Positions 18,585 through 64,000 of a stretch of 64,000 nt of DNA are shown here, one piece after another. A program made the translations under genes and the position numbers. A model generated the notes under the pieces. It saw only the letters and a list, made by a program, of their open reading frames with translations. It was not told the DNA's origin and did no database searches. The stretch is from Sphingobium sp. (lineage in GTDB: Bacteria; Pseudomonadota; Alphaproteobacteria; Sphingomonadales; Sphingomonadaceae): positions 1 to 64,000 of the forward strand of contig JALCRK010000009.1 of NCBI GenBank assembly GCA_022652485.1, written 5' to 3'. The stretch's first letter is position 1; each line of letters starts with the position of its first letter.

Positions 18585-20381
18585 ATGAAGGGACTGATTT
18601 TGGCCGGGATCGAAACCACAGACAGTGCAGTAATGACCAGGCCGGAAAAGGCCGCAGGCAGTCTGCGCCCGCTTCCGACGCACGACGCCCTGCCGCGCCG
18701 CTTTTCCGATTTCGCAACGATGGGCGAGGCGCTCGATTATGCCGCCTCGGGCACCCGCGGGTTCAATTTCCACGATGCGCGGGGCAACCTTGCCCGCCCC
18801 TATCCCTATAGCGAGCTGCGCGCCGACGCGCTTGCCTGCGCCTATCGCCTGATCGCTCACGGCATCAAGCCGGAGGACCGGATCGCGCTGGTCGCGGAGA
18901 CAGGCGTCGAGTTCGCGCAGATGTTCTTCGGCGTTATCTATGCGGGTGCATGGCCGGTGCCGCTGCCCCTCCCCACCAGCTTTGGCGGCAAGGAAAGCTA
19001 TATCGACCAGCTCTCCGTCCAGCTTTCGAGCTGCGATCCCAAGATCCTGTTCTTCCCCGCCGAACTTGCCGAGATGGCGGGCGAGGCCGCGCGGCTGAAC
19101 AAGGTCGAGGGGCTGGCGTTCGAGGATTTCATCGCGCGTGAAGCCGTCCCCTGCCGCCTGCCGCAGGCGCATACCGACGAGATCGCCTATCTTCAGTACA
19201 GCAGCGGCTCCACGCGCTTCCCGCATGGCGTCGCGGTGACGCACAAGGCGCTGCTGTCGAACCTTTCCGCCCATAGCCACGGCATGGAACTTCAGGACAG
19301 CGACCGCTGCATCAGCTGGCTGCCCTGGTATCATGACATGGGTCTTGTCGGCTGCTTCCTCTCGCCGGTCGCCAATCAGGTGTCGACCGACTATATGAAG
19401 ACCGAGGATTTTGCGCGCCGTCCGCTCGCATGGCTCGATCTCATCAGCCGCAACGAGGGCACGACGATCAGCTATTCGCCCACCTTCGGCTATGACATCT
19501 GCGCGCGCCGCATGTCGAGCCAGACAAAGGCGTCGGATCGGTTCGACCTCTCACGCTGGCGGCTTGCGGGCAATGGCGCGGACATGATCCGCCCGGACGT
19601 GATGCAGAGCTTCGTCGATGCATTCGCCGATGCCGGGTTCAAACCGTCCGCCTTCCTGCCGAGCTATGGCCTTGCCGAGGCGACGCTTGCCGTCACGATC
19701 ATGCCTCCGGGTGAAGGCATCATGGTCGAGCTGGTGGAGGAAACGGATCTTTCCGGCGGGGACGCCGCCGAGGGCCGTCCGCAGCGCTATCGCGCCATCG
19801 TCAACTGCGGCAAGCCGGTGAAGGACATGGTGGTCGAAATCCGCGACGAGGATGGCTCGCTGCTCGGCGAAGGGCAGATCGGCAAGGTATGGACCACCGG
19901 ACCATCCCTCATGGTCGGCTATTTCCGCGACGACGAGGCGACTGCCGCCTGCATGGTGGACGGCTGGCTCGACACCGGCGACATGGGATATATGTCCAGC
20001 GGCTATCTCTATATCGTCGGCCGCGCCAAGGACATGATCATCATCAACGGCAAGAACCACTGGCCGCAGGATATCGAATGGGCGGTGGAGCAGCTCCCCG
20101 GCTTCAAGCAGGGCGACATCGCCGCCTTCGCGATCACCACGCCCAATGGCGAGGAGGCGCCGGCAGTGCTCGTCCATTGCCGTACCTCGGACGATACCGA
20201 ACGCGCCAGGCTGCGCGACCAGATCCGCGACCGGGTTCGCGCCATCACCGGCATGAACTGCGTGGTGGAACTCGTACCGCCGCGTACCCTGCCGCGCACC
20301 TCATCGGGCAAATTGAGCCGCTCCAAGGCGCGCAAGCTCTATCTTGAGGGCGAAATCGTACCTTACGCCATCGCGGCATAA
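18585..20381 (+). CDS. Fatty acyl-AMP ligase, candidate acyl donor enzyme for sphingolipid ACP
   Basis: A 598-residue ANL-superfamily enzyme that adenylates a fatty acid and passes it to an acyl carrier protein or CoA. Motifs: AYLQYSSGSTRFPHGV (P-loop), WLPWYHDMGLVGCFLSPV, SYSPTFGYDICARR, PSYGLAEATLAVT, WLDTGDMGYM, IIINGKNHWPQDIEWAVE, and the C-terminal catalytic Lys in LPRTSSGKLSRSKARKLY. WYHDMGL and NHWPQDIE are typical of the FAAL group. In the Caulobacter pathway an acyl-ACP synthetase loads the sphingolipid ACP; this gene is the only candidate in the window, 33 kb from the ACP. The start may be 18585 or 18633. Confidence 0.88.
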   Translation: MKGLILAGIETTDSAVMTRPEKAAGSLRPLPTHDALPRRFSDFATMGEALDYAASGTRGFNFHDARGNLARPYPYSELRADALACAYRLIAHGIKPEDRIALVAETGVEFAQMFFGVIYAGAWPVPLPLPTSFGGKESYIDQLSVQLSSCDPKILFFPAELAEMAGEAARLNKVEGLAFEDFIAREAVPCRLPQAHTDEIAYLQYSSGSTRFPHGVAVTHKALLSNLSAHSHGMELQDSDRCISWLPWYHDMGLVGCFLSPVANQVSTDYMKTEDFARRPLAWLDLISRNEGTTISYSPTFGYDICARRMSSQTKASDRFDLSRWRLAGNGADMIRPDVMQSFVDAFADAGFKPSAFLPSYGLAEATLAVTIMPPGEGIMVELVEETDLSGGDAAEGRPQRYRAIVNCGKPVKDMVVEIRDEDGSLLGEGQIGKVWTTGPSLMVGYFRDDEATAACMVDGWLDTGDMGYMSSGYLYIVGRAKDMIIINGKNHWPQDIEWAVEQLPGFKQGDIAAFAITTPNGEEAPAVLVHCRTSDDTERARLRDQIRDRVRAITGMNCVVELVPPRTLPRTSSGKLSRSKARKLYLEGEIVPYAIAA

Positions 20382-48645: not shown

Positions 48646-49218
48646 ATGTTTTCAAGAACAGAGCGCCTGCTGCTGCGCCCGGGCTGGACCGAAGACGCGT
48701 CGGCCCTCGCCCGGACGATCGCCGACCCCGCCATCGCCCGCAACCTGACACGGTTGCCCTGGCCTTATGGCGTGGCCGATGCGCAGCGTTATATCGCCGA
48801 GCAGCAGGAGCAGGAATTCCCCGATTTCCTGATCTTCAAGCGCACGCGCGGCGCGCCCCAGCTGATCGGCGGATGCGGCATCTCGACCAGCGAGGACGGC
48901 GCACCGGAACTCGGCTACTGGATCGCGCGGCATTATTGGGGGCTGGGCTTCGCCACCGAGGCCGCCGCCGCCGTCATGCGGATCGCGCGGGCAACCGGGC
49001 TGCGGCGGATCAGGGCCAGCCACTTCCGGGACAACCCCGCCTCGGCCGGCGTGCTGCACAAGCTCGGCTTCCGCTCCACCGGCAAGGTCGAGACGCGGCA
49101 TAGCCCTGCGCGCGGCGGAGCAGCGGAGTGCGTGCTGTTCGAGGATGATGGCATCGCCCCCATGCGGAGCGACCTGTCGCTGGATCTCTACCGCGATCTC
49201 GCGCCGGTCGCGGCCTGA
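48646..49218 (+). CDS. GNAT-family N-acetyltransferase (RimJ/RimL type)
   Basis: A 190-residue acetyltransferase. It shows TERLLLRPGWTEDASALART, LIGGCGISTSEDGAPELGYW, and the acetyl-CoA loop region HYWGLGFATEAAAAVMRIAR, followed by RASHFRDNPASAGVLHKLGF. This is the acetyltransferase_3 type that modifies N-termini or small molecules; the substrate is unknown. The ATG at 48646 with GAGAGGACC upstream is the family start. It lies between rpmA and a pseudogene ahead of obgE. Confidence 0.9.
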   Translation: MFSRTERLLLRPGWTEDASALARTIADPAIARNLTRLPWPYGVADAQRYIAEQQEQEFPDFLIFKRTRGAPQLIGGCGISTSEDGAPELGYWIARHYWGLGFATEAAAAVMRIARATGLRRIRASHFRDNPASAGVLHKLGFRSTGKVETRHSPARGGAAECVLFEDDGIAPMRSDLSLDLYRDLAPVAA

Positions 49219-49234
49219 GGCGGCAGAGCCAGGA

Positions 49235-49612
49235 AATTGCGCGGGCGGCGGGCCTTATGGGCATAATGGCTGGTTCGACAGGCTGGAGGACGTGATCGAC
49301 TTCTATGCCACGCGCGATGTGAAGCCGACCTGCACCAGCGTCATGCTCAGCTCCTCGGCGGCAGTCGCGGCGGGATGCTGGCCGGGCGCGGAGTTCGCCG
49401 ACCAGATGAACACCGACGAGCTGGGCAACCTGCCGCTCAACAGGTGGGAAAAGCAGAATATCGCCACCTTTCTGGGAACCCTCACCGATGGATATCAACC
49501 CGGCGCCATCCCCGAACCCGCCACCTGGGCACTGATGATTCTCGGCTTCGGCGGGATTGGCGCGCGGATACGGCGTCGCCGCGCGCACAAAGCTGCCCTC
49601 GCCACGGCCTGA
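49235..49612 (+). pseudogene. C-terminal remnant of a di-haem cytochrome c peroxidase/MauG-like protein with PEP-CTERM signal
   Basis: The translated fragment (about 125 residues) begins inside a conserved segment: GGPYGHNGWFDRLEDVIDFY, then ATRDVKPTC, MNTDELGNLPLNRWEKQNIA and FLGTLTDGYQP. This is the typical end of MauG/cytochrome-c-peroxidase-like proteins, where GPYMHNG precedes a terminal helix. It ends with an intact sorting signal, PEPATWALMILGFGGIG and a basic tail RIRRRRAH. Nothing upstream encodes a signal peptide or the CXXCH haem motifs: the GNAT gene ends at 49218. The front about two thirds are therefore deleted. Confidence 0.72.
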
Positions 49613-51866
<2,254 letters not shown>

Positions 51867-51867
<1 letters not shown>

Positions 51868-52769
51868 TGCGTGTTGTGGCCGTCACCGGCGCGACGGGGT
51901 TTGTCGGCGGCGAGACGCTGGATCAGTTGCTGGACGCGGGCTTCGCCGTGCGGGCGCTGGCGCGGCGCGCACAGCCGGAACGCGCGGGCGTGACATGGGT
52001 CGCGGGCGCGCTGGATGACCCTGCGGCGCTGGATGATCTGGTGCGCGGCGCGGACGTGGTGCTGCATATCGCGGGGGTGGTGAACGCGCCTGATCGCGCC
52101 GGGTTCGAGGCAGGGAACGGCCAAGGCACCGCCCACGTCATCGCCGCGATGGGGCAGGCGGGCGTGAAACGCCTCGTCCATGTCTCCTCCTTTGCGGCGC
52201 GCAATCCGCAACTGTCCGATTATTGCTGGTCCAAGCATCTCGCCGAGGAGAAGGTGCGCGCCTCTGGCCTCGACTGGACGATATTGCGGCCTCCCGCCGT
52301 CTATGGCCCCAGGGATACGGAGTTCATCGAGGTGATGAAGGTCGCGCGACATGGCCTGATGCCGGTGCCGCCCACGGGCCGCGCCTCGCTCATCCATGTG
52401 CGGGATCTGGCGCGGGTGCTCGTCAGCCTGTGCGGCGAGGCGGGCGCTGCCTATGCCGGCCAGACATGGGAGGTGGACGACGGCGCCCCAAATGGCCTCT
52501 CGCATATCGAGCTGGCCGCCGCCTTCGGGCGGGCATTGAACCGCCGCGTGATCCCCCTCCCCCTGCCCCAAGGCCTGCTGATGCTGTTCGCGCGGGGAGA
52601 CCGGCTGGTGCGCGGGCCGCGCGCCAAGCTCACGAAGGACCGCGTGCGCTATATGTGCCACCCCGATTGGGTGATCGACCCGGCGAAGCGGCCACCGGCA
52701 AACTTCTGGCAACCCCGCATATCCGCCGATGAAGGGCTGGCGGAGGTCGCCGCCTCACTCGTAAATTAA
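51867..52769 (+). CDS. NAD(P)-dependent epimerase/dehydratase family protein, CerR-like (sphingolipid ketone reductase candidate)
   Basis: A 300-residue extended short-chain dehydrogenase. The Rossmann motif is VTGATGFVGGETLDQLL (7-23); the catalytic pair is Tyr119-x3-Lys123 in DYCWSKHLAEEK. Other marks are VLHIAGVVNAP, LRPPAVYGPRD and LIHVRDLARVLV. In Caulobacter an epimerase-like reductase, CerR, sits beside spt and reduces the keto group made by serine palmitoyltransferase, after N-acylation. Position next to ACP and spt supports the same role here. The ATG overlaps the proB stop (TAATG). It converges with the DUF5706 gene with a 4-base overlap. Confidence 0.82.
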
Positions 52770-53299
52770 AGACGCAGGCCGGTTATCAGCTCCAACACCA
52801 GGAGCACGAAGCTGCCCACCAATCCGGTCAGAAATGCCCGGTATGCATAGCCAAGAAAGCGATATTTCTTGCGCGCCAGAACCTGTCCGTTCTGATAAAT
52901 ATCCCGCAGCATCATGCGGTAGGCGTCTTCATCGCATTGGAGCCGACCGAGTACCTCGTCCGAGAAGTTTTCTTCGCTCAGCTGAGAATAGACACCAAAA
53001 AACAGCAGATTGTCGCCGGGGCCGAGAGCGCCTTTCGCTTTGCTCACTCTCGGCAGCACACATATGATCGCGCAAATCGCAGCCAGAAACGCTCCCGTCG
53101 CCAGAACGGCAATAGGGAGCAGCATCGTGCCAGCATGGATCTGCCCTACGGAGAGGGTAAAAATCACAAATGAGGCGCCGATTATCATATTGGCCTTCTG
53201 ATCCGCCATCTGACTGAGAGTCAGATTGCCTTGCATCGTCGTCCGCAATACATAGATCGCGTTGGGGATGAACTCCGAAGGCTTATTCAGATTATTCAT
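52766..53299 (-). CDS. DUF5706 membrane protein (PycTM/Pycsar-effector-like fold)
   Basis: A 177-residue protein with the DUF5706 pattern: LTLSQMADQKANMIIGASFV starts the first membrane helix, a second helix follows after about 25 residues (AVLATGAFLAAICAIICVL), then DNLLFFGVYSQLSEENF, MMLRDIYQNGQVLARKKYRF and a third helix near the end. The same fold is the effector of Pycsar defence, which disrupts membranes on cyclic nucleotide binding. No cyclase is nearby, and the gene lies inside the sphingolipid cluster, so a membrane-lipid-related role is a fair alternative. I chose the ATG at 53299 (AGGG upstream) over 53335. Confidence 0.72.
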   Translation of the reverse strand: MNNLNKPSEFIPNAIYVLRTTMQGNLTLSQMADQKANMIIGASFVIFTLSVGQIHAGTMLLPIAVLATGAFLAAICAIICVLPRVSKAKGALGPGDNLLFFGVYSQLSEENFSDEVLGRLQCDEDAYRMMLRDIYQNGQVLARKKYRFLGYAYRAFLTGLVGSFVLLVLELITGLRL

Positions 53300-53451
53300 T
53301 ATGTTACGCCCTATTATTGGCTGATCATCAATCATGCCATTATCAGTTTTTGTTCCGATCAAGCCCACTTCCCGCCATATTCGCTTGCCAAAGAACGTCA
53401 AGCGCGGGCATGACCCCGTCACATACACTTCCACGGGAAAAAGACAGTTCG

Positions 53452-53694
53452 ATGACTGACCGCAACGACATTCAGGATCGCGTTCTTGAGCAGATTGCTC
53501 CGTTCAACAAAAAAGGGGTGGAGCTTTCCGACGCCACCACCTTCGCGGGCGATCTGGAGTGGGACAGCCTGACCGTGATGGATTTCGTCGCCGCGATCGA
53601 GGATGAATTCGACATCATCATCAGCATGAACATGCAGGCCGAGATCGAAACGATCGGCCAGTTGATCGACGCCGTGGCGAAGTTGATCGGCTGA
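53452..53694 (+). CDS. Acyl carrier protein dedicated to sphingolipid synthesis (AcpR-like)
   Basis: An 80-residue acyl carrier protein. The phosphopantetheine Ser is Ser39 in GDLEWDSLTVMDFV, and the fold ends DAVAKLIG. It differs from the fatty-acid-synthesis ACP (no fab genes nearby) and lies 11 bases before spt, so it likely carries the acyl chain used by serine palmitoyltransferase. In Caulobacter the equivalent ACP is required for ceramide synthesis. The ATG at 53452 follows GGGAAAAAGAC. It is the first gene of the spt operon. Confidence 0.9.
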   Translation: MTDRNDIQDRVLEQIAPFNKKGVELSDATTFAGDLEWDSLTVMDFVAAIEDEFDIIISMNMQAEIETIGQLIDAVAKLIG

Positions 53695-53705
53695 GGGGCG
53701 CACGC

Positions 53706-54929
53706 ATGACCGACCTGTTTTCCAAATTCGATCCGCTGATCGAGATGCGCGCCAACCTGCTCTCCAGCGGAGTCACCGACCCGTTCGGCCTCGTGATGGA
53801 GAAGGTGATCTCGCCCACCGTCGCGCTGTGCAACGGGCGCGAAACGATCCTGCTCGGCACGTACAACTATATGGGCATGACGTTCGACCCGGACGTGATC
53901 CAGGCGGGGAAGGACGCGCTCGACCAGTTCGGCTCCGGCACCACCGGCAGCCGCGTCCTCAATGGCACCTATGCCGGGCACAAGGCGGTCGAGGAGGCAT
54001 TGAAGGACTTCTACGGGATGGACCATGCGATGGTCTTTTCCACCGGCTATCAGGCCAATCTCGGCATCATCAGCACGATCGCGGGCAAGGGCGACTATAT
54101 CGTGCTCGATATCGACAGCCACGCCAGCATCTGGGACGGCTGCAAGATGGGCGATGCCGAAGTCGTGCCGTTCAAGCACAACGACATCGACGCGATGGAA
54201 AAGCGCCTGAAGCGCATTCCCGAGGGCGCGGGCAAGCTGGTGGTGCTGGAAGGCGTCTATTCGATGCTGGGCGACATCGCGCCGCTGAAAGAGATGATCG
54301 CGGTCGCCAAGGCGCATGGCGCGATGGTTCTGGTGGACGAGGCGCACTCTATGGGCTTCATCGGCCCCAACGGGCGCGGCGTGGCCGAAGAACAGGGCGT
54401 GCTGGACGAGGTCGATTTCGTGATCGGCACCTTCTCGAAATCGGTCGGCACGGTGGGCGGCTTCTGCGTCTCCAACCATCCCAAGTTCGAGATCATGCGG
54501 CTGGTGTGCCGCCCCTATGTCTTCACCGCCTCGCTCCCGCCGAGTGTGGTCGCCACCGCCACCACCTCGATCCGCAAGCTGATGCACGCCAGCAACAAGC
54601 GCGCACATCTGTGGGAGAACAGCAAGACGCTGCACAAGGGCCTGCGCGACGCGGGCTTCCAGCTCGGCACCACAGAACCGCAGAGCGCCATCATCTCCGT
54701 CATCATGCCGGATCTGGAGCGCGGCGCGGCGATGTGGGAGGCGCTGCTGCACGAGGGGCTGTATGTGAACCTCGCGCGCCCGCCCGCAACGCCCGCCGGG
54801 ATGACACTGCTGCGCTGCTCGCTCTGTGCCGAGCATAGCGCGGAACAGGTGCAGACGATCATCGGCATGTTCACCCGCGCCGGCAAGGCCACCGGGATTA
54901 TCGGCCAGGAACACACTCTTAGCGCGTAA
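53706..54929 (+). CDS. spt: Serine palmitoyltransferase
   Basis: A 407-residue PLP enzyme condensing serine with a long acyl thioester to 3-ketosphinganine, the first step of sphingolipid synthesis. Active-site residues: His139 (DSHASIWDG, stacks on PLP), Asp211 (VDEAHSMGFIG), Lys245 (GTFSKSVGTVGGF, PLP lysine) and Arg in ARPPATPAG near 370. The sequence resembles the soluble homodimeric Sphingomonas paucimobilis enzyme. It starts 11 bases after the ACP gene. Together these two genes anchor the assignment of this cluster and of the organism. Confidence 0.97.
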   Translation: MTDLFSKFDPLIEMRANLLSSGVTDPFGLVMEKVISPTVALCNGRETILLGTYNYMGMTFDPDVIQAGKDALDQFGSGTTGSRVLNGTYAGHKAVEEALKDFYGMDHAMVFSTGYQANLGIISTIAGKGDYIVLDIDSHASIWDGCKMGDAEVVPFKHNDIDAMEKRLKRIPEGAGKLVVLEGVYSMLGDIAPLKEMIAVAKAHGAMVLVDEAHSMGFIGPNGRGVAEEQGVLDEVDFVIGTFSKSVGTVGGFCVSNHPKFEIMRLVCRPYVFTASLPPSVVATATTSIRKLMHASNKRAHLWENSKTLHKGLRDAGFQLGTTEPQSAIISVIMPDLERGAAMWEALLHEGLYVNLARPPATPAGMTLLRCSLCAEHSAEQVQTIIGMFTRAGKATGIIGQEHTLSA

Positions 54930-54982
54930 AACCGGGAAATCTGCGGCTTCCCTTGCGTGGGCAGATGGTATAGCCTCGGCAC

Positions 54983-57001
54983 ATGAACGACTATTCTGGC
55001 GGGATTGCAGAGGAGAGTACGCCCTGGAAAGAGCGCGTCGATCGCCTCTTGCCGATACTCATCGGCGTTTCCCTCGCCATGACTATCGGCGCCCTGCTCT
55101 ATTTCGCGGGAACCGCCGCGCGGGAGCAGGAACAGGCGCTGATCCAGCAGCAGCGCAGCTACGAGATCGTGTCGCTGGCGCATCAGCTCGACGCCTCCGT
55201 CGCGAAGGCGGAGTCCTCGCTCGCCCGCTACGTCATCAGCATGGACAAGGATATTGGCCGCCAATATCAGGACGAGTGGGACCATGCGGCCACCGAGCTG
55301 GCGACGCTGCGGCGGGTGACGCTCAACGATCGCGTCGAGGCCGCGCTGGTCGATCAGCTCGATGTCGCCTTTCAGGAACGCGGGGCCGCGCTTAGCGACA
55401 TCGCGCTGCGCACGACCTATGACCAGAAGGAAACCTCGCTCGGTAAATTCTACCTCGCGAGCAAGGCGCAGAGCCTCAGGCGCATGAACGCGCTGCTCGA
55501 TCAGGTGATCGAGGAAGAGAACACCCGGCTCGATGAGCGCAATGTCGATGTGGTGCGCGCGGGAGACAGCGTGCAGCAGGTGACGACAACATATCGCCTC
55601 GTCGGGCTGGTGCTGATGGTCGCGCTGCTGCTGATGCTATGGGTCGCGCGGGCGACGATGAAGGAGCGGCGGCAGGAGCAGAGGCTGATCGACGAGGAAT
55701 ATCAGCGGGCACTGGCGCTGGAGGCCGCCGTCGCCGCGCGCACAGAGGAACTGCGCCACGCCTATGCCAAGCTGCAACGCGAATCCGAGGATCGGGCCAA
55801 GGCGGAGGAAAGCCTGCGCCAGATGCAGAAGATGGAAGCCGTGGGCCAGCTTACGGGCGGCATTGCCCATGATTTCAATAATATGCTGGCCGTTGTTGTG
55901 GGTGGATTGGAGCTTGCGCGACGGCGCGTAGCCGACGAACCGGAGGCGGTGCGCCATCTGGACAATGCGCTGGAGGGGGCCGAGCGGGCCGCCGCCCTCA
56001 CCCGCCGCCTGCTCGCTTTCGCGCGCGCCGAGCCGCATATGCCCGAGGCGCAATCGCCGGACGGGGTCGTCACCGGCATGGTCGATCTCGTCGATCGTGC
56101 GATCGGCGACCAGATCAAGGTGGAGCTGGATCTCGATTGCGGCGACTGGCCGGTGTTCGTCGACCGGCATCAGCTCGAGAACGCGCTGCTCAACCTCGCG
56201 GTCAACGCGCGCGACGCGATGGACGGCAAGGGCACGCTGCTGTTCCGTACGCGCCAGACCCGCCTGCGCGGCAACGAGATCGGCGAGTGTACGCCGGGCG
56301 AATATATCTGCCTCTCCGTGATCGATACCGGCTGCGGCATGACGGACGAGGTGCGCGCGCGGGTGTTCGAGCCGTTCTTCACCACCAAGGCGCATGGCAA
56401 GGGCACCGGGCTGGGCCTCAGCCAGGTGTTCGGCGTCGTGCGGCAATGCGGCGGCGAGATCGAGATTCTTTCCACCCCCGGCGAGGGCACCGAGGTTCAG
56501 CTCTATCTGCCGCGCCATATTCAGGCCGGAAAGCCGGAAGGAGCGGCCCCCTCCCCGGCTGCGACGGATAGCGCCAGCCCGGCCCTTTCCGGCTCCGGCC
56601 AGACCCCACTCAGGATATTGGTGGTGGAGGATGATCCGCGCGTGCTGGCGCAGACGCGTTCCGCCATCGTGGAGCTGGGCCACATGGCGATCTGCTGCGA
56701 TCATCCCTCGCGGGCGGTCGCGATGCTGGACGAGAATCCGGGCATCGACATTATTCTGAGCGACGTGCTGATGCCGGACATGACGGGGCCGGAGATGATC
56801 GCGGCGTTGCCGCCGCATTATCGCTCCATCCCGGTGATGTTCGTGACCGGCTATGCGGGCGATGTGCAGGACAGCCGCATGTTCGAGGGGCATTTCCTGC
56901 TGCGCAAGCCCTACACCCTCGCCGCGCTGGAAAAAACGATAGCGCAGGCGGCCGTCAGCCGATTGCCCGGCTTGCAATCAGACGTGGCACCAGCAGGATA
57001 G
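54983..57001 (+). CDS. Membrane-bound hybrid sensor histidine kinase
   Basis: A 672-residue protein. Two transmembrane helices (about 23-43 and 205-224) enclose a helical periplasmic sensor of CHASE3-like type. A coiled coil leads to HisKA with phospho-His296 ([20 protein letters not shown]), a HATPase domain ([49 protein letters not shown]) and a C-terminal receiver with VVEDDPRVL and [13 protein letters not shown]. Its position directly after spt suggests it senses or controls envelope or sphingolipid state, which is inference. Its last 47 bases overlap the convergent nucleotidyltransferase-like gene. Confidence 0.92.
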
Positions 57002-57866
57002 CCGCGACCAGCGGGTGCCGCCGCTGCCACGGTCGCAGGACGATGCGGGTTCCGGCATGGCGATTGATCTTCCACGCGAGATACTCGATCCCGCCCGCGA
57101 AGGTGAAGCTCGCCTTGATGAGACGCAGGACGCTCAAGGTCTTGCCGCGCCGTCGCAGCTGCTGCCAGCGAAGGGTCGCGGCGTTCGCCTCCGCACGGCT
57201 GACGGCGGCAGCAGAACCGATCCGTCCGTCCGCTATCGCGGCATCAAACAGGGCCGCATAATAATCCGGCGCGCTCTCGACGATGGAGCCGGAGCGCCCT
57301 TTGCGTTCGGCGCGCAACTCGCAGGTGTAGGTCATGGCAAAGCCCGCCTCGAACACGCCGCGCGCGCCTGCCCGCTCCGCAGGCGACACACCCGGCAAGG
57401 CGAGCGCGAGCAGGGTCGACCCAGCCTCGGCGACAGATGCGACGACATTCCGCCTTGCAGCTTCATCCGCCACCCATGCCAGCCGCGAAGGCTGCGCGAA
57501 GCGTGCCCAGACAGAGACATTGTCCGCCTTATCGCTGCACAGCCGGGCGAAATCATCTTGAGACAGCACCGCATATTTGGCACTCAGGCCATTCAAAGCA
57601 AATGGAAAAACATTAGGCGGGATCAGGCGGTTGGCGGAAGCCAGCCAGCTCTTGCCATAGGCGGCGCGATAGTCTGACACGATGAGGTAGAAATCGAGCA
57701 TCAGCCCATCCAGCTGGCTCTCGCGCAGGCAGGAGCCGTAGAACAGCACGGCGCGCGCGGCGGCGGGATGGAGCGCGGCGATGGCCGCCGCCATCTCCGC
57801 AACGCGTGGATCGACAGGCTGGGCAAGCTCGGCGCCGACCAGCGCCGCGACGGCGGAACCGCTCAC
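56955..57866 (-). CDS. Nucleotidyltransferase-like protein of the sphingolipid locus
   Basis: A 303-residue protein without a firm family match. Residues 40-70 read AVLFYGSCLRESQLDGLMLD then FYLIVSDY, which looks like the GS-x(n)-DxD pattern of nucleotidyltransferases such as Tam41-type cytidylyltransferases. The C-terminus has a hydrophobic segment ([18 protein letters not shown]). It lies in an operon with the lipid kinase: the kinase's stop and this gene's ATG overlap by 4 bases. In Caulobacter, genes for ceramide phosphoglycerate formation flank spt, and this protein plausibly belongs to that head-group step. It overlaps the hybrid kinase end by 47 bases. Confidence 0.6.
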   Translation of the reverse strand: MSGSAVAALVGAELAQPVDPRVAEMAAAIAALHPAAARAVLFYGSCLRESQLDGLMLDFYLIVSDYRAAYGKSWLASANRLIPPNVFPFALNGLSAKYAVLSQDDFARLCSDKADNVSVWARFAQPSRLAWVADEAARRNVVASVAEAGSTLLALALPGVSPAERAGARGVFEAGFAMTYTCELRAERKGRSGSIVESAPDYYAALFDAAIADGRIGSAAAVSRAEANAATLRWQQLRRRGKTLSVLRLIKASFTFAGGIEYLAWKINRHAGTRIVLRPWQRRHPLVAAILLVPRLIASRAIG

Positions 57867-58840
57867 GCCGCGAGACGCAGGAACGGCACCGGCGGGGTCG
57901 ATGTCAGTACGATCGGCCGCCCCTCATCGGCGTGGAAGATCTCGCCGTCCAGAATGACGCTGCTGTTCTCGCCCTCGATGCGGATTTCGTCGCCATGTTC
58001 GAGGTGGATGCCATCCATCTTCTGCCGCCCGAAACGCCCGAGCGCGCTTGCGAAAACCATGCGCAGCATCGCCCCGGCGCTATGATCGACCGCGAGCAGC
58101 TTCAGCCTGCCGCCGACATCGGCACCCCCGGCGGGGCGCGCACCCAGCAGCAGCTTCTCGAGCGTGGTGACGATCAGCACCGCATAGCGCCCGACCATCT
58201 GGCCCTTGCGGATGAAGGAGATGGAAACGGGCCGCGCGGCGGGCGGCATATATTTCCCCTTGATGCCGAAGAAGACACCGGCCAGCACCGCAAGCGCGGT
58301 GAGAAAATGCGAGATGCCGTTGGAAAGACCGAGCGGATAGATGCGGTTGCGGCAATAGAGGATGGAATCGGCCAAGCCTGCCCCACCGAGGAACATGCCG
58401 AGCACCGGGCGGCTCGTCGGCCCGCCATCGGACAGCGCGATCAGCTCGCGCGCCACGACATGCCCCTGTACCCCCTCCCGCGCGATCGCGACAATCTGCT
58501 CGAGCGCCTTGATCGGATCGCCCCTGATGCCGAGATCAAGCGCGATGAGGTTGGTCTTGCCATTGGGCAGCACCGCGACCGGCGGCGGGCTGGCGCCCTC
58601 GAAATAATGCCCCTGATACAGCTCGGTCAGGGCGGTCTGCACGGTGCCGTCGCCGCCGTTGATGACGAGGACCGCCGGCTTCACATGCGCGATCATCTGC
58701 ATCGCGCGGCCGATCTGCTCGACGCACTCCACCTCATAGTGGAAAATGTCCTGATTGCCCGCGCAATAGCTGCGAACGCGCGGAAGCAACTGGCGGTTGC
58801 CGGTCGACTTCGGGTTCGAGAGGAGCGCGACGAGAACCAT
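57863..58840 (-). CDS. Diacylglycerol/ceramide kinase-family lipid kinase (CpgB-like candidate)
   Basis: A 325-residue lipid kinase. The nucleotide motif is INGGDGTVQTALTELYQ (60-76); VAVLPNGKTNLIALDLGIRG is the PNGT-like motif, here PNGKTN, and GMFLGGAGLADSIL follows. The C-terminal domain ends HLEHGDEIRIEGENSSVILD then GEIF. In Caulobacter the ceramide kinase CpgB phosphorylates ceramide as the first step to ceramide phosphoglycerate; this gene's place between the spt and lptFG genes makes it a good candidate for the same function. The ATG at 58840 is 4 bases from the DUF2141 stop, and its stop overlaps the next gene by 4 bases. Confidence 0.82.
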   Translation of the reverse strand: MVLVALLSNPKSTGNRQLLPRVRSYCAGNQDIFHYEVECVEQIGRAMQMIAHVKPAVLVINGGDGTVQTALTELYQGHYFEGASPPPVAVLPNGKTNLIALDLGIRGDPIKALEQIVAIAREGVQGHVVARELIALSDGGPTSRPVLGMFLGGAGLADSILYCRNRIYPLGLSNGISHFLTALAVLAGVFFGIKGKYMPPAARPVSISFIRKGQMVGRYAVLIVTTLEKLLLGARPAGGADVGGRLKLLAVDHSAGAMLRMVFASALGRFGRQKMDGIHLEHGDEIRIEGENSSVILDGEIFHADEGRPIVLTSTPPVPFLRLAA

Positions 58841-58844
58841 GATC

Positions 58845-59366
58845 CTACATATACTGGAGCGAAATGGCGATGATGACCGGCGTATTGCCGACCGCGACCG
58901 CGGCCTTGTCCACCGAGGGCTTGCCGAGGTTGAAAATGCTGACCTTGGGATTATTCGAGAATCCACCGCCGTCGCGACTCAGATCGGTCTTGCCGTTGCC
59001 GTTGACATCATGACGCACGGCGACGCCATAGCGGCCCGAGGCGGGCAGCGGCATACAGAAGCGCATCTTGCCGTTTACCGGACGCGCCGGCGCCTCGATC
59101 CGGTTGATCCAGGCGCCCTTCTCCAGCCAGGCAGTGCGGGTGGCGGGATAGGACTGAAGCCGGATGATGCCCGTCGACGCCTCGAACCCGGAAACCTCGA
59201 CAATGATCGAAGGACCGGCATCGGCGGCGCAGCGCGCCATGTCGTTATCGATCACCTGACGCTGGGCATAAGCAAGAACGGGGGACGCGACGGAGCCGCC
59301 AATCACGAGCGCCGCAGCAACGGCACAGAGCGCCGCCTTGCGAAACACACCCGAAATTTTCGACAT
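58845..59366 (-). CDS. DUF2141 exported protein
   Basis: A 173-residue exported protein. A signal peptide runs to about residue 32 (ALVIGGSVASPVLAYAQ). The DUF2141 pattern (COG4704) is visible: IIVEVSGFEASTGIIRLQSY, LPASGRYGVAVRHDVNGNGK and FSNNPKVSIFNLGKPSVDKA. The family is a small beta-barrel of unknown function in the cell envelope. GAGGAGAAA eight bases before the ATG at 59366 fixes the start. It is the first gene of the operon with the lipid kinase and nucleotidyltransferase-like gene, divergent from lptF. Confidence 0.9.
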   Translation of the reverse strand: MSKISGVFRKAALCAVAAALVIGGSVASPVLAYAQRQVIDNDMARCAADAGPSIIVEVSGFEASTGIIRLQSYPATRTAWLEKGAWINRIEAPARPVNGKMRFCMPLPASGRYGVAVRHDVNGNGKTDLSRDGGGFSNNPKVSIFNLGKPSVDKAAVAVGNTPVIIAISLQYM

Positions 59367-59499
59367 GACCAAGTTTCTCCTCGAAGCTATAGCCCGCTCA
59401 GGATAGAACGTCCCGCGCGAGCTGGCCCTGTTCGCCCTGATGTTGATATGGAAGGCATTTGCGGCCAAAAAATGGTGACGGGACGACGATAAGTTGAAA

Positions 59500-60705
59500 A
59501 TGTTCAATTCCACCGATCGCTACATCGCGCGCCTGATCGCGGTGCCGCTGACGAGTACGCTGGTCATCGCGGCGATGCTGCTCGTGCTGGACAAGATGCT
59601 GCGCCTGTTCGATTTCGTGGCGGCGCAAGGCGGCCCGGTGAGCGTGGTGTGGCGGATGCTGGCCAATATGCTGCCCGAATATCTCTCGCTCGGCATCCCC
59701 ATCGGCCTGATGCTCGGCATTCTGCTCGCGCTGCGGCGGCTCGCGCTGTCATCCGAGCTGGACGTGCTGCGCGGCGTCGGCATGTCTCCCGCCCGTCTGA
59801 TGCGTGTGCCATATATGTATGCCGCGGCGCTGGCGCTGGTGAACCTCGCCATCGTCGGCTTCATCCAGCCCTATTCGCGCTATGCCTATGAAGGCCTGTC
59901 CTACGAGCTGCGTTCCGGCGCGCTCGGGGCATCGATCAAGATCGGCGAGTTCGCCAACCTCGGCAAGGGCATGACGCTGCGCATCGAGGAAAGCCACGAC
60001 ACCGGGCGCGACCTGCGCGGCATATTCGTCCGGATCGAGCAGAAGCCGGGCCAGTCGCTCGCCGTTACCGCCGCGCGCGGCACCTTCATGGCCACCGACG
60101 ACCCGGACACGATCATCCTGCGCCTGACCGATGGCGTGCTCGTGCAGCGCTCGGCGAAGCTCGCCAGCCCGCGAATCCTGAGCTTTTCGGGCCACGACCT
60201 GCCGATCGCGCTGCCCAAGATCGAGAATTTCCGCAGCCGCGGCAATGCCGACCGCGAGCTGACCCTGCCGGAGCTGGTGCGGGTGGGCGTCGCCGACACT
60301 ACCCAGCCCAAGACCCGCAGCGAGGTGCTGGCGAACATGAATTTCCGGCTGGCCGAGGTGGCGATGATGTTCCTGCTGCCACTCGCCGCGCTGGCCTTCG
60401 CGATCCCGCCCAAGCGATCCACTTCGGCGCTAGGCGTGTTCCTCTCGATCGTGTTCATCGTCACCTATCACAAGATCAACCAATATGCCGAGGCGCTGGG
60501 CTCCAGCGGCCGGGTCAGCCCGTTTCTGGCGCTATGGGTGCCTTTCGTGCTGTTCTCGGCGTTGATCCTCTGGATGTATCATGTCGCCGCGCACCGGCCG
60601 GGCGGCCAGCCGATCGGCGCACTCGAAGCGGTGTTCGCCAAGATATCCAAATGGATGGGCAAGTGGCTGCGGCTGGGTCGCAGAAAATTGCGGCACGCCC
60701 TGTAG
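59500..60705 (+). CDS. lptF: LptF, permease of the envelope glycolipid exporter
   Basis: A 401-residue LptF/LptG-family protein. Three N-terminal helices (FNSTDRYIARLIAVPLTSTL; the segment with GIPIGLMLGILLALRRL) are followed by a periplasmic beta-jellyroll (SIKIGEFANLGKGMTLRIEE) and three C-terminal helices (AFAIPPKRSTSALGVFL). With LptG and the ATPase LptB it lifts glycolipid from the inner membrane to the Lpt bridge. The start is the ATG at 59500; a TTG two codons before is also in frame. lptG follows after 18 bases. Confidence 0.94.
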   Translation: MFNSTDRYIARLIAVPLTSTLVIAAMLLVLDKMLRLFDFVAAQGGPVSVVWRMLANMLPEYLSLGIPIGLMLGILLALRRLALSSELDVLRGVGMSPARLMRVPYMYAAALALVNLAIVGFIQPYSRYAYEGLSYELRSGALGASIKIGEFANLGKGMTLRIEESHDTGRDLRGIFVRIEQKPGQSLAVTAARGTFMATDDPDTIILRLTDGVLVQRSAKLASPRILSFSGHDLPIALPKIENFRSRGNADRELTLPELVRVGVADTTQPKTRSEVLANMNFRLAEVAMMFLLPLAALAFAIPPKRSTSALGVFLSIVFIVTYHKINQYAEALGSSGRVSPFLALWVPFVLFSALILWMYHVAAHRPGGQPIGALEAVFAKISKWMGKWLRLGRRKLRHAL

Positions 60706-60723
60706 GCCGGAGAGGACAGACCC

Positions 60724-61824
60724 ATGCAGCTCCAGTTCTTTCCCTCGCGCCGCCTCGCCATCTATATGGCGCGGACGTTTCTCATCCGCTGCTTCGCGGT
60801 GCTGGCGATGCTCGTCATCGTGCTGATGACGCTCGATCTGCTGGGCGAGAGCGGCGACATCCTTGCCGTGCCGGGCAATGGCGAGGCGCAGCTGTGGCAT
60901 TATGTATCGTTACGCCTGCCGCAGATCGTCGCCACATTCCTGCCCTTTTCGGTCCTCCTCGGCACCCTCATCACGCTCGCGACGATGAACCAGCATAGCG
61001 AGATCGTCTCGATGAAGGCGGCGGGCCTCTCCGCGCACCAGATTCTCGCGCCGATGATCGCGGCGGCGATGGGCATCGCGCTGCTGAGCTTCGCCTTCAA
61101 CGAGCGCATCGTCACCCACGCCAGCGCCGCGCTGTCGGCCTGGAAGGCGGTGGGATACGGCGAGATCCCCCGCGACACCGGCCTCAAGACCAATGTGTGG
61201 GTGCGCGAGGGCAACAACCTCGTCACCGCCGGAATCGTCGGCGGGCGCGGCAATGGCGTGGTGCTGCGGCAGGTGGAGATATTCCACCGGCTCGACAATC
61301 ACCTGATCGACATCGTGCGCGCGCCGAAGGGGCATTATGATCCCGCCGCCAAGGCCTGGGTGCTGGAGGATGCAAAGCTGTTCGACGTGAACAGCGGCAC
61401 CAGCCGGGCGCTTGGCACGATCCTTAACGGCAAGGGCATTCGTCCCGATCAGTTCACGCTCGCCAAGGTGGACGCAGACGGGCTGGATTTCTTAGCGCTG
61501 CGGCAAGCGATACAGGATCTGCGCGATGCGGGGCGGCCCACGGCCTCGCTGGAGGCGGACCTGTGGCACAAGATCGCCCGGCCCTTGTCGGCGCTGCTGA
61601 TGCCGCTGCTCGGATCGGTGGCGGCCTTTGGCCTCGCGCGCTCGGGCCAGTTGTTCATCCGCGCGGTGATCGGCATGACGCTGGGCTTCACCTATTTCGT
61701 CGCCGACAATTTCGCGCTGGCGATGGGCAATCTCGGCGCCTACCCGCCGATGCTCGCGGCCTGGGCGCCGTTCCTGCTGTTCCTGATGCTGGGCGAAGCG
61801 GTGTTGATACGGACGGAGGAGTGA
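60724..61824 (+). CDS. lptG: LptG, permease of the envelope glycolipid exporter
   Basis: A 366-residue LptG homologue. RLAIYMARTFLIRCFAVLAM and VLMTLDLLGESGDIL form the first helix region; LRLPQIVATFLPFSVLLGTL, TMNQHSEIVSMKAAGLSAHQ and LIRAVIGMTLGFTYFVADNF are family motifs. It pairs with LptF. Sphingomonads are known for glycosphingolipids in place of LPS, so in this organism the Lpt machine may carry glycosphingolipid; the genes lie beside the sphingolipid cluster. Confidence 0.94.
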   Translation: MQLQFFPSRRLAIYMARTFLIRCFAVLAMLVIVLMTLDLLGESGDILAVPGNGEAQLWHYVSLRLPQIVATFLPFSVLLGTLITLATMNQHSEIVSMKAAGLSAHQILAPMIAAAMGIALLSFAFNERIVTHASAALSAWKAVGYGEIPRDTGLKTNVWVREGNNLVTAGIVGGRGNGVVLRQVEIFHRLDNHLIDIVRAPKGHYDPAAKAWVLEDAKLFDVNSGTSRALGTILNGKGIRPDQFTLAKVDADGLDFLALRQAIQDLRDAGRPTASLEADLWHKIARPLSALLMPLLGSVAAFGLARSGQLFIRAVIGMTLGFTYFVADNFALAMGNLGAYPPMLAAWAPFLLFLMLGEAVLIRTEE

Positions 61825-61842
61825 TGGGCGTCTTTTCCTGAC

Positions 61843-61929
61843 CGTCACCCCGGACTTGATCCGGGATCCCGCTAAATTCATTAACAAGAGAAGCGAAAAG
61901 CGGGATCCCGGGTCAAGCCCGGGATGACG
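61843..61929. repeat. Palindromic intergenic repeat (CGTCATCCCGG family)
   Basis: CGTCACCCCGG (61843-61853) and CCGGGATGACG (61919-61929) bound an 87-base unit. Inside are GATCCGGGATCCCGC and its inverted partner GCGGGATCCCGGGTC. It lies between lptG and the convergent desaturase gene. Confidence 0.75.
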
Positions 61930-61938
61930 ATTGGGAAG

Positions 61939-62997
61939 CTACCGCCTCACCATCGTACTGCGCGCGATCTTGCCGAGGAGCGGTATCATGCCGCCGTAAT
62001 TCGCGCCATCATAGGTCGAGCCCGCGCCGAGGTGCGCCACGATCCGGCGGTGCGCCTCGTCCAGCGCATGATAGGGCAGGCTCGGCAGCAGGTGATGCAG
62101 CGCATGATAGCGAAGTCCCACCGGCGCCCAGAGCGGCGCGATCCAGCCCGGCGGCGGCACGTTCACCGAGTCGAGATATTGCGCCGTCACCGTCATGGCC
62201 GCGCCGTCATTCTCCCACAGGTGCGCGACGAGGGTGCGGAGCTGGTTGAGCACGGCCGTCACGGAAAACACCGCGAGCGCTATAACCAGCGGCCGCCAGC
62301 CGATGAATTGCGTCAGGCCAAGCATCGCGATCGCCCACAGGCTCGCGCCCAGTTCCTGCCAGAAGACCATGCGGGCAAAAGCGCCTTCGGGCGGGCGGCG
62401 GCGGAAGGCAGGGTTGATCGAGAGCGCCGAAAAGCGCTCCCACACATGGCGGCGCAGCGGCGGGACAAGCGCACCCAGCGGCACCAGCACGGCGCTGCGG
62501 AACAACAGCGCCACCGGCGCCAGCGCCGCCACGATCACAAACACGGGCAGCGACCACGGCTTCATCAGGGCAAGCGGCAGATATTCCGGATCCTCCGCCG
62601 TGCCATAGCGGGTGCGAGCGTGGTGCAGCGTATGGACGCCCTCGTACATGAAGCTGGGGGTCAGCATCGGAATGCCGACGAACAGGTTCCACGCGAACCG
62701 GAAACCGGGCAGCGCGTTGCGGTGAATATGCGTCAGTTCATGGATGAACAGCAGCGCGCGATAGAGCGCCAGCGCGGCAAGCACGCCCAGTCCCGCCATA
62801 CTCAGCGGATCGTGGCTCAGGATCGCGCCCGCGAGCGCCCCATAGCCGACCAGCGCGGAGACAAAGCAGTCAGGCCAATAGATCGCCGCCCGCGCGGTGG
62901 AGAGATCCTTGGTCAGATCCACCGCCGCGCGCAGCATGGCCGTATCGTCTGGGATGGCGGATTTGCGCGCCGCTTCGATCTTTGTCTGTGCCGTCAT
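61939..62997 (-). CDS. Membrane fatty-acid desaturase/hydroxylase-family protein
   Basis: A 352-residue integral membrane di-iron enzyme. Three His boxes are seen: HELTHIH (86-92), HTLHH (122-126) and HALHHLLPSLPYH with HRR near residue 300. Hydrophobic segments lie between. The family inserts double bonds or hydroxyls into acyl or sphingoid chains. Its position between lptG and the ceramide synthase candidate suggests an acyl or sphingoid-chain modification in the sphingolipid, an inference. The ATG at 62997 is preferred; a longer frame to 63033 exists. Confidence 0.88.
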   Translation of the reverse strand: MTAQTKIEAARKSAIPDDTAMLRAAVDLTKDLSTARAAIYWPDCFVSALVGYGALAGAILSHDPLSMAGLGVLAALALYRALLFIHELTHIHRNALPGFRFAWNLFVGIPMLTPSFMYEGVHTLHHARTRYGTAEDPEYLPLALMKPWSLPVFVIVAALAPVALLFRSAVLVPLGALVPPLRRHVWERFSALSINPAFRRRPPEGAFARMVFWQELGASLWAIAMLGLTQFIGWRPLVIALAVFSVTAVLNQLRTLVAHLWENDGAAMTVTAQYLDSVNVPPPGWIAPLWAPVGLRYHALHHLLPSLPYHALDEAHRRIVAHLGAGSTYDGANYGGMIPLLGKIARSTMVRR

Positions 62998-63130
62998 GAC
63001 GCCATTCCTACAGTCCAAATATGCGCGGATCATGGCAGCAAAGTGACATAATCATTGTCCGCGCCGCACGTCCGCCCTAACAAGACCGGCGCATCTTTCC
63101 CTGTCACCGATCAAACATAAGGCAAACGCA

Positions 63131-64000
63131 GTGGCTGCATCCGACCTAGTGATCTCTCCCGTCTCCGGCAAGGCCGACTTGAAAGCGTTCGTCGATTTCG
63201 CGTGGGAAGCGTACAGGCAAGATCCCGCCTGGGTGCCGCCGCTGAAGGACGAGGTGATGGGAATGCTGACCCCCGGCAAGAACCCGTTTTTCGGGCACGC
63301 CGAGGCGCAATATTTTCTGGCGAGGCGCGATGGAAAGATCACCGGGCGCATTTCCGCGCATATCGACAGGCTCGCGCTCACCATGCCGCCGGAGCAGGGC
63401 ATGGGGCCGGGCACCGGCTTCTGGGGCATGTTCGATGCACTGGATGGAGCAAGCGCTGCGGCGCTGATCGCGGCGGCGGAGGGCTGGCTGCGCGACAAGG
63501 GGATGACCCGCGCGCTCGGCCCGATCTCCCTCTCGATCTGGGAGGAGCCGGGCCTGCTGACGCAGGGGCATGACCATCCGCCAACGGTGATGATGGGCCA
63601 CCACCTGCCCCAATATCAGCCGTGGATCGAGGCCGCAGGCTATGCCTCCGCGAAAACGCTGCGCACCTATGAGCTGGACATCACGCATGAATTTCCTCCG
63701 CTCATTCAGCGCATCATCCAGTCGGGCGAGAAAAACGAGCGTATCCGCATCCGCAAGGTGGACAAGAGCCAGTTCGACAAGGAAGCGGCGATCATCCTCC
63801 ACATCCTGAACGACGCATGGGGCGACAACTGGGGTTTCGTGCCGATCACCGACGCCGAGGTCGCGTTTACGGGCAAGAAGCTGAAGCCCATCGTGTTCGA
63901 GGATCTGATCCGCGTGGCGGAGCTGGATGGCGAGCCGGTCGCCTTCATGATGACCCTGCCGGATCTCAACGAGGCGCTGACGCCGCTCAATGGCTCGCTG
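63131..64000 (+). CDS. GNAT-superfamily acyltransferase, candidate bacterial ceramide synthase (3' end outside window)
   Basis: The frame opens at GTG 63131 and runs off the right edge (290 codons seen). It has AWEAYRQDPAWVPPLKDEV, FFGHAEAQYFLARRDGKITG, RISAHIDRLALT, RALGPISLSIWEEPG, TVMMGHHLPQYQPWIEAAGY, LNDAWGDNWGFVPITDAEV and MTLPDLNEALTPLNG. This is the long GNAT-like family to which the Caulobacter bacterial ceramide synthase belongs, as I recall it; the sequence family is widespread, so the specific role rests on the location beside spt, ACP and the reductase. It would N-acylate the sphingoid base or 3-ketosphinganine. It is divergent from the desaturase. Confidence 0.72.
   Translation, partial: MAASDLVISPVSGKADLKAFVDFAWEAYRQDPAWVPPLKDEVMGMLTPGKNPFFGHAEAQYFLARRDGKITGRISAHIDRLALTMPPEQGMGPGTGFWGMFDALDGASAAALIAAAEGWLRDKGMTRALGPISLSIWEEPGLLTQGHDHPPTVMMGHHLPQYQPWIEAAGYASAKTLRTYELDITHEFPPLIQRIIQSGEKNERIRIRKVDKSQFDKEAAIILHILNDAWGDNWGFVPITDAEVAFTGKKLKPIVFEDLIRVAELDGEPVAFMMTLPDLNEALTPLNGSL

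Follow-up and report, generated by a model that had tools for sequence, protein, structure and literature searches.

A clustered sphingolipid locus in a Sphingobium-like bacterium with a PycTM-family gene divergent from acpR-spt

Genes for an acyl carrier protein (AcpR) and a serine palmitoyltransferase (Spt) are found in a 64,000-nucleotide stretch of Sphingobium sp. DNA (contig C9, positions 1–64000; genome of 3.06 Mb in 62 contigs), which is referred to below as the window. A gene of the PycTM family, to which the membrane-acting effector of Pycsar, a system for defence against phages, belongs (PMC11224242), is divergent from acpR-spt in the same locus, where an lptF-lptG pair is also present. 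The locus raises the questions of what a protein from a phage-defence family does beside the genes for sphingolipid synthesis, and of which lipid its LptF-LptG pair carries. The results described below make it probable that sphingolipids are made and exported by the products of this locus in a Sphingobium-like bacterium in which no LpxC was found, and that PycTM is a conserved divergent partner of acpR-spt. Judged from its genes, the locus represents a known pathway in the clustered form of a sphingomonad, and the PycTM partner is its surprising part.

Predicted ceramide and head-group genes of the locus

From position 51867 onward (Table 1), cerR, acpR, spt, a hybrid histidine kinase gene, lptF, lptG and a CerS-like gene lie on the plus strand, and the PycTM, CpgC-like, lipid kinase, DUF2141 and desaturase-type genes on the minus strand. 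An earlier note on this DNA had proposed a near-complete ceramide and head-group locus of the Caulobacter type, and all of the genes that it named are present as open frames. The Spt protein scores 812.7 bits with the NCBIfam equivalog model NF047603, for which the cut-off is 670, and matches solved serine palmitoyltransferase structures (2x8u, E 7.6e-207); it is 97% and 95% identical, respectively, to Spt of the nearest named spt loci, those of Sphingobium sp. DEHP117 and Sphingobium fluviale. These relatives place the genome in the order Sphingomonadales of the class Alphaproteobacteria, which are the order and class referred to below. The acpR gene ends 11 bp ahead of spt. Pfam domains over their cut-offs were found in the reductase, acyl carrier protein, kinase, desaturase-type, DUF2141, LptF and LptG proteins. 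In the alignments, the glycine-rich nucleotide motif TGATGFVG and the YxxxK motif of the CerR-like reductase are mostly kept in 18 rows, the GGDGT motif of the kinase is kept in 16 rows and the three histidine boxes of the desaturase-type protein are kept in eight. A desaturase-type gene with 36% identity to that of the window was also observed in another family (L055:8976, genome G061), where it lies between spt and a CpgC-like gene, a placement that supports a sphingolipid-modifying role.

The gene neighbourhood recurs in other bacteria. When about 20 kb around spt (35 kb for G140) from 13 genomes of the same class and other families was searched with the window proteins, cerR and acpR were each found in 12 genomes, the CpgC-like gene in 11, the kinase, cerS and lptF or lptG in 10 each, DUF2141 in two (L042 and L044, beside the kinase) and the desaturase-type gene in one; the histidine kinase and PycTM were found near spt in none of the 13. 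The order from acpR to cerS is kept in five of 80 named loci (L056, L057, L058, L131 and L135), four of which (not L135) also have cerR, and the arrangement is thus not due to chance. Most of the other named loci, largely from Novosphingobium, retain acpR-spt alone, and several of the 80 are incomplete. Clustered loci are also present in genera g136, g143 and g142, and partly in g1, g2 and g149, and the histidine kinase after spt is retained in several sphingomonad genera. Hence, the description of sphingolipid genes as scattered in Sphingomonadales, for which PMC11324152 relied on two genomes, is not valid for the whole order, as they are clustered in several of its genera. An unbiased clustering of the neighbours of the named loci was discarded, since shadow frames of GC-rich DNA prevailed in it.

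In Caulobacter crescentus, where the corresponding region is CC_1168–CC_1152, spt, CC_1161 and CC_1160 are reported to be consecutive (PMC11324152). The two loci share a core of cerR-like, acpR-like and spt genes, CpgC- and CpgB-like genes after spt, and lptF/lptG and a CerS-like gene nearby. In the loci of the 13 genomes of other families, spt, the CpgC-like gene and the kinase follow one another as spt, CC_1161 and CC_1160 do, and this position supports orthology. However, in the window the histidine kinase gene sits between spt and the CpgC-like gene, the desaturase-type, DUF2141 and PycTM genes also lie inside the locus, and the AasR-like and CpgA-like genes lie apart from it. In addition, no LpxC was found here, and there is one adjacent LptFG pair with no second set. 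An AMP-binding (adenosine monophosphate) enzyme encoded 33 kb upstream of the locus in the same window is 47% identical (E 1.7e-159) to the product of the gene preceding cerR in genome G029, and it is named AasR-like from the position of that homolog. A CpgA-like gene is present on another contig (C40:24086-25111), its product being 45% identical to that of the gene after the kinase in G029. Both it and its G029 counterpart contain a CDP-alcohol phosphatidyltransferase domain (CDP, cytidine diphosphate), as does a second gene of G029, and CC_1159 is likewise described with this domain (PMC11324152).

A number of observations weigh against a full Caulobacter-type assignment. With AasR 33 kb away and the CpgA-like gene on a different contig, the description as near-complete was too strong, and the locus is the core of the pathway and not the complete set; in genome searches of G125 and G010 CpgA-like genes were not found. 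Pfam and NCBIfam scans returned no curated family by which the reductase, the kinase or the acyltransferase would be named a sphingolipid enzyme; in NCBIfam the reductase is closest to HpnA (hopanoid epimerase) and the kinase to MamU, both matches being far under their cut-offs, and a PDB search with the kinase gave no match. The putative acyltransferase, placed by the earlier note in the GNAT superfamily, has no Pfam match over cut-off and its GNAT match is below threshold (14.4 bits against 20.7), but its gene is near spt in the 10 genomes noted above. The Caulobacter-type assignment is thus carried by the family matches, motifs and recurring neighbourhood, and it is upon family, motif and position that these data support orthology to the individual Caulobacter proteins.

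The CpgC-like protein, which had been called nucleotidyltransferase-like, resembles Tam41 in its predicted fold. Its AlphaFold2 model (predicted local distance difference test score, pLDDT, 74; predicted template-modelling score, pTM, 0.74) gave Tam41 chains as the top four Foldseek matches in the PDB, with E values of 7.3e-4 to 3.5e-3. Tam41 is described as forming CDP-diacylglycerol from cytidine triphosphate (CTP) and phosphatidic acid, and as using a basic, amphipathic helix at its C-terminus for attachment to the membrane (PMC7018664). In 16 aligned rows of the CpgC-like family YGS, D and PPN residues are invariant, and the C-terminus carries a conserved basic stretch, which may form an amphipathic helix; the likeness to Tam41 would then extend to both the predicted nucleotidyltransferase fold and the basic C-terminal stretch. 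However, Tam41 is a mitochondrial CDP-diacylglycerol synthase, whereas the CpgC-like protein is bacterial and its presumed substrate is ceramide-1-phosphate. The resemblance is also lessened by the template-modelling scores of these matches, which are about 0.4, by the fact that one of them alone has an E value below 0.001, and by the lack of any Pfam or NCBIfam match over cut-off for the window protein. Of 16 family members, L053 is the single one to pass the Pfam Tam41_Mmp37 model (PF09139), with 27.6 bits where 24 are required. Tam41 was not found when PDB sequences were searched with a profile made from the CpgC-like alignment; a nucleotidyltransferase domain was the best match there, with an E value of 0.88.

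The model, together with the adjoining kinase gene, indicates CTP-dependent activation of ceramide-1-phosphate as the likely step of the CpgC-like protein. Synthesis of CDP-ceramide by CpgC is not a new proposal, since for CC_1161 a CDP-diacylglycerol-synthase InterPro domain has been noted and a nucleotide-activated ceramide suggested (PMC11324152); where the mechanism of CpgC is mentioned in PMC12275187 and PMC13228409 it is termed unidentified, and the term CDP-ceramide was not found in the literature searched. The predicted Tam41-like fold supports the printed suggestion of a nucleotide activation of ceramide-1-phosphate. By analogy with Caulobacter, AasR and AcpR would supply an acyl-carrier-protein-bound acyl group, Spt would join it with serine, and CerS and CerR would complete the ceramide. 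The desaturase-type protein would probably hydroxylate or desaturate the lipid, and the lipid kinase would convert it to ceramide-1-phosphate, from which the Tam41-like CpgC homolog, using CTP, would probably form CDP-ceramide for attachment of the head group.

The PycTM-family gene beside acpR-spt

The gene between cerR and acpR was overlooked in the earlier note. Its product matches PF18967 with an E value of 2.9e-24 (85.9 bits against a cut-off of 27.2) and the PycTM model of PADLOC with an E value of 2.1e-13. Within the order, members of this family were found over cut-off in 55 of 197 genomes, in a single copy in 54 of them, and spt was located in all 55 carriers. In 45 of the 55 carriers, covering 15 of 19 genera, PycTM is divergent from spt and upstream of it, and in 42 of these 45 linked genomes 550–730 bp separate spt from the PycTM domain match, which leaves room for acpR and a promoter. 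The ten carriers in which the two are unlinked are G265, G305, G239, G285, G323, G296, G192, G309, G212 and G187. Among the named loci 23 of 80 have PycTM, some of the others having little upstream sequence; as the named loci overlap with the genomes surveyed (L073 is G298, L119 is G328 and L135 is G172), the counts of 23/80 and 45/55 are not independent.

The conservation of this arrangement is not matched by that of the DNA on the other side of PycTM. In a clustering of 16 larger regions, which also holds shadow frames and was used solely to determine which loci share flanking DNA, the far side of PycTM is occupied by cerR in six regions and in the window, and by a different conserved stretch in seven; L184, L188 and L196 fit neither set. 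Since acpR-spt-PycTM is kept across at least two far-side contexts, the link of PycTM appears to be to acpR-spt and not to a larger block. The protein itself is also conserved, as 23 residues are invariant among relatives that are 32–49% identical to the window protein, and the motifs SQMADxKA, NxLFFG and DxYQNGxVL are mostly kept. Its predicted structure is helical (pLDDT 77, pTM 0.59); a comparison of this model with the PDB gave no match with E ≤ 0.001, and when the PycTM alignment was used as a profile against PDB sequences, weak matches to ribosomal protein S20 (best E 0.15) were all that it returned. In a phylogenetic tree, the PycTM proteins mostly branched by genus and the window protein grouped with that of L146, which is from the same genus; three unlinked proteins were mixed with the rest, and several long branches make this tree unsure.

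Two observations count against a required role in sphingolipid synthesis: in 142 of the 197 genomes no member of the family reaches the cut-off, and PycTM is missing from the locus in L056–L058, the closest of the named relatives. PycTM is thus dispensable for the pathway. The many relatives that lack it are also compatible with PycTM being a passenger, which takes no part in sphingolipid metabolism and is held in place by shared synteny or by a shared divergent promoter. This explanation, which we consider rather doubtful, draws further upon the region between PycTM and acpR. The sequence CTTGACAAG, which holds a TTGACA box and is near-identical on both strands, lies no more than 300 bp ahead of acpR in 37 of 50 PycTM-containing loci (these include a few duplicates, 47 of the sequences being distinct) versus three of 54 loci without it. 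It may serve overlapping divergent promoters, and promoter sharing alone could hold the genes together. A passenger role is, however, opposed by the retention of PycTM beside acpR-spt where the far-side neighbour differs (two sets of seven loci each), and by the 23 residues that stay invariant at such low identity. As a PycTM-specific control site CTTGACAAG was set aside and is a lead only, since the window carries a variant and not an exact copy, and relatives without PycTM carry sites like that of the window.

In Pycsar systems, the gene for the pyrimidine cyclase adjoins that for the effector. These two components are described in PMC11224242, and a class III cyclase (PF00211) was accordingly sought near PycTM. 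None of the 45 spt-linked genomes was found to have one on the PycTM contig at a distance of up to 20 kb, and 28.7 kb is the shortest distance observed; this test is limited by several contigs ending less than 20 kb from PycTM (e.g., 12.7 kb in G334). Two of the ten unlinked carriers, which serve as an internal positive control, do have a cyclase near PycTM, at 0.5 kb in L161 (G192) and at 1.7 kb in G212:C20, and these neighbours are probable Pycsar pairs. The single PF00211 match of the window genome is on a different contig from PycTM, and membership of the window PycTM in a Pycsar system was rejected, as the cyclase partner was sought and not found nearby. The alternative that PycTM truly acts in abortive infection, as a Pycsar-type or other effector by which the sphingolipid pathway is used or guarded, so that a phage attack on sphingolipid synthesis would lead to membrane damage, appears unlikely. 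It is favoured by the PF18967 and PADLOC matches, by the likely Pycsar pairs in the same order, and by the presence of some class III cyclase elsewhere in the genome of 54 of the 55 carriers. It is opposed by the finding of no cyclase within 20 kb on the contig in the linked cases, and the single fixed genomic place over 15 genera is unlike that of a mobile defence gene.

The window PycTM thus shares its domain family with Pycsar but differs in having acpR-spt, and no class III cyclase, as its neighbour, and it is probably sphingolipid-linked and not part of Pycsar. Most likely it would serve in the inner membrane as a partner of sphingolipid synthesis or as its regulator, rather than as a defence effector triggered by a cyclic nucleotide. 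The more specific suggestion that PycTM was recruited in Sphingomonadales as such a partner or regulator of AcpR-Spt is a tentative one. Eukaryotic serine palmitoyltransferase is controlled by small membrane proteins, and PycTM would be a bacterial functional counterpart of these. No literature report linking PycTM, DUF5706 or Pycsar to sphingolipids was found. If the link is real, models of defence systems such as those of PADLOC report an effector against phages at a gene that is tied to sphingolipids instead, and bacterial sphingolipid synthesis may be regulated at its committed step by a membrane protein for which no report was found.

LptF and LptG in genomes with and without LpxC

LpxC is the committed enzyme of lipid A synthesis. 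No LpxC (PF03331) was found in the window genome, a draft of 62 contigs that is listed as 100% complete, and this bacterium therefore probably has no lipopolysaccharide (LPS). The enzyme was found in none of 12 genomes examined (that of the window and 11 others with spt loci), whereas the controls E. coli, Caulobacter, Synechococcus and Bacteroides were all positive. The only adjacent lptF-lptG pair in the window genome is that of the sphingolipid locus. The likeness to the LPS transporter LptB2FGC-A-DE consists of the LptF and LptG families and of an LptD encoded elsewhere in this genome; the differences are the location of lptF-lptG in a sphingolipid locus and the lack of a detectable LpxC. 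Movement of sphingolipids by LptF2 and LptG2 has been put forward as a hypothesis in PMC11324152, where the route of sphingolipid transport from the inner to the outer membrane is stated to be unknown, and the numbers of LptF/G genes in different genomes provide a test of this hypothesis.

LptF/G genes were counted in 144 genomes of the class, of which 22 have Spt at E ≤ 1e-100; 12 genomes with Spt matches between about 1e-60 and 1e-70 alone were counted as lacking it. LpxC absence is strongly associated with Spt, being seen in 14 of the 22 Spt genomes (which include G140, G031, G139 and G029) versus 10 of 122 others; the 14 belong to ten families. Among 112 genomes with LpxC and no Spt, two LptF/G genes are present in 107, one in four and four in one, whereas of the eight genomes with both LpxC and Spt, seven have four or five such genes and one has two. 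For the occurrence of four or more genes among the genomes with LpxC, a Fisher test gave p = 1.1e-9, shared ancestry being ignored. At least three of these seven genomes (G105, G106 and G132) have one or more LptF/G genes in the vicinity of spt and further ones by lptD. For the 14 genomes with Spt and no LpxC, the count is two in 12, three in the window genome and none in one; where both are missing (10 genomes), it is none in five, two in four and three in one. Retention of LptF/G among the LpxC-less genomes gave p = 0.05 by the same test, again with shared ancestry ignored. LptD is single in all eight genomes with LpxC and Spt and in 13 of the 14 with Spt alone, i.e., in 21 of 22 Spt genomes. 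A Fisher test at the family level was dropped, as its denominator was uncounted.

The simplest reading of these counts is that one LptFG pair serves each outer-membrane lipid and that LptD is common to them, and the counts support the export of sphingolipids by LptFG. By this reading, LptF-LptG would lift the completed sphingolipid out of the inner membrane and pass it over the shared Lpt bridge to LptD. Some results, however, speak against such a simple relationship. Five genomes lacking both LpxC and Spt retain LptFG, and G055, which has Spt, has no match to LpxC, LptFG or LptD, from which it follows that Spt can exist without LptFG and LptD; G055 is possibly a case of sphingolipids without an Lpt bridge. 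All six genomes without LptFG (G055 and the five with neither LpxC nor Spt) also have no LptD match, although absences of LptD are not fully reliable, as the profile used misses seven of 112 LpxC genomes. That the lptF-lptG pair of the window still carries LPS or another glycolipid and lies in this locus incidentally is unlikely: the presence of LptD, the LPS translocon, and the five LpxC-less, Spt-less genomes with LptFG would agree with it, but no LpxC was found in the window genome, four or more LptF/G genes occur in 7/8 genomes with LpxC and Spt versus 1/112 with LpxC alone, and G105, G106 and G132 have LptF/G genes both near spt and next to lptD. With export by LptFG as the favoured reading, the gene counts make the question of sphingolipid transport directly testable. 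The third LptF/G gene of the window genome is a single one without a partner (contig C30:4725-5762, 130 bits); it is possibly a paralog or contamination, the genome being listed at 4.38% contamination.

Features of the window

The coordinates of the locus and of the AasR-like gene are summarized in Table 1. The DUF2141 and kinase genes are separated by 4 bp, and the kinase and CpgC-like genes overlap by 4 bp; these three genes are spaced as an operon would be.

Table 1. Positions of the genes of the sphingolipid locus and of the AasR-like gene in the window
Feature	Position	Strand	Basis or remark
AasR-like acyl-ACP synthetase (ACP, acyl carrier protein), extent of match	18663..20354	+	PF00501 180 bits; outside the region treated in the earlier note
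cerR-like NAD(P)-binding reductase/epimerase	51867..52769	+	PF13460 and PF01370 over cut-off
PycTM-family membrane protein, 177 aa	52766..53299	-	PF18967; frame open to 53434, start picked by alignment
Divergent intergenic region PycTM/acpR, 152 bp	53300..53451	.	CTTGACAAG frequent before acpR in relatives
acpR-like acyl carrier protein	53452..53694	+	PF00550 over cut-off
Serine palmitoyltransferase (Spt)	53706..54929	+	NF047603, PDB 2x8u
CHASE3-like hybrid histidine kinase with receiver domain	54983..57001	+	PF02518, PF00512 and PF00072 over cut-off; CHASE3 below cut-off
CpgC-like protein, predicted Tam41-like fold	56955..57866	-	Foldseek, conserved residues
CpgB-like lipid (ceramide) kinase	57863..58840	-	PF00781 55.8 bits, cut-off 23.6
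DUF2141 protein, signal-peptide-like start	58845..59366	-	PF09912 69.7 bits; frame open to 59513
lptF	59494..60705	+	PF03739 209 bits
lptG	60724..61824	+	PF03739 246 bits
Fatty-acid desaturase/hydroxylase-type protein	61939..63033	-	PF00487 85.8 bits
CerS-like N-acyltransferase	63131..64000, on to contig position 64288	+	Sub-threshold GNAT match; position

Lastly, a small frame on the plus strand at 49145-49612, ahead of the locus, closes with PEPATWALMILGFGGIGARIRRRR and a short tail, an ending that resembles a PEP-CTERM sorting signal.

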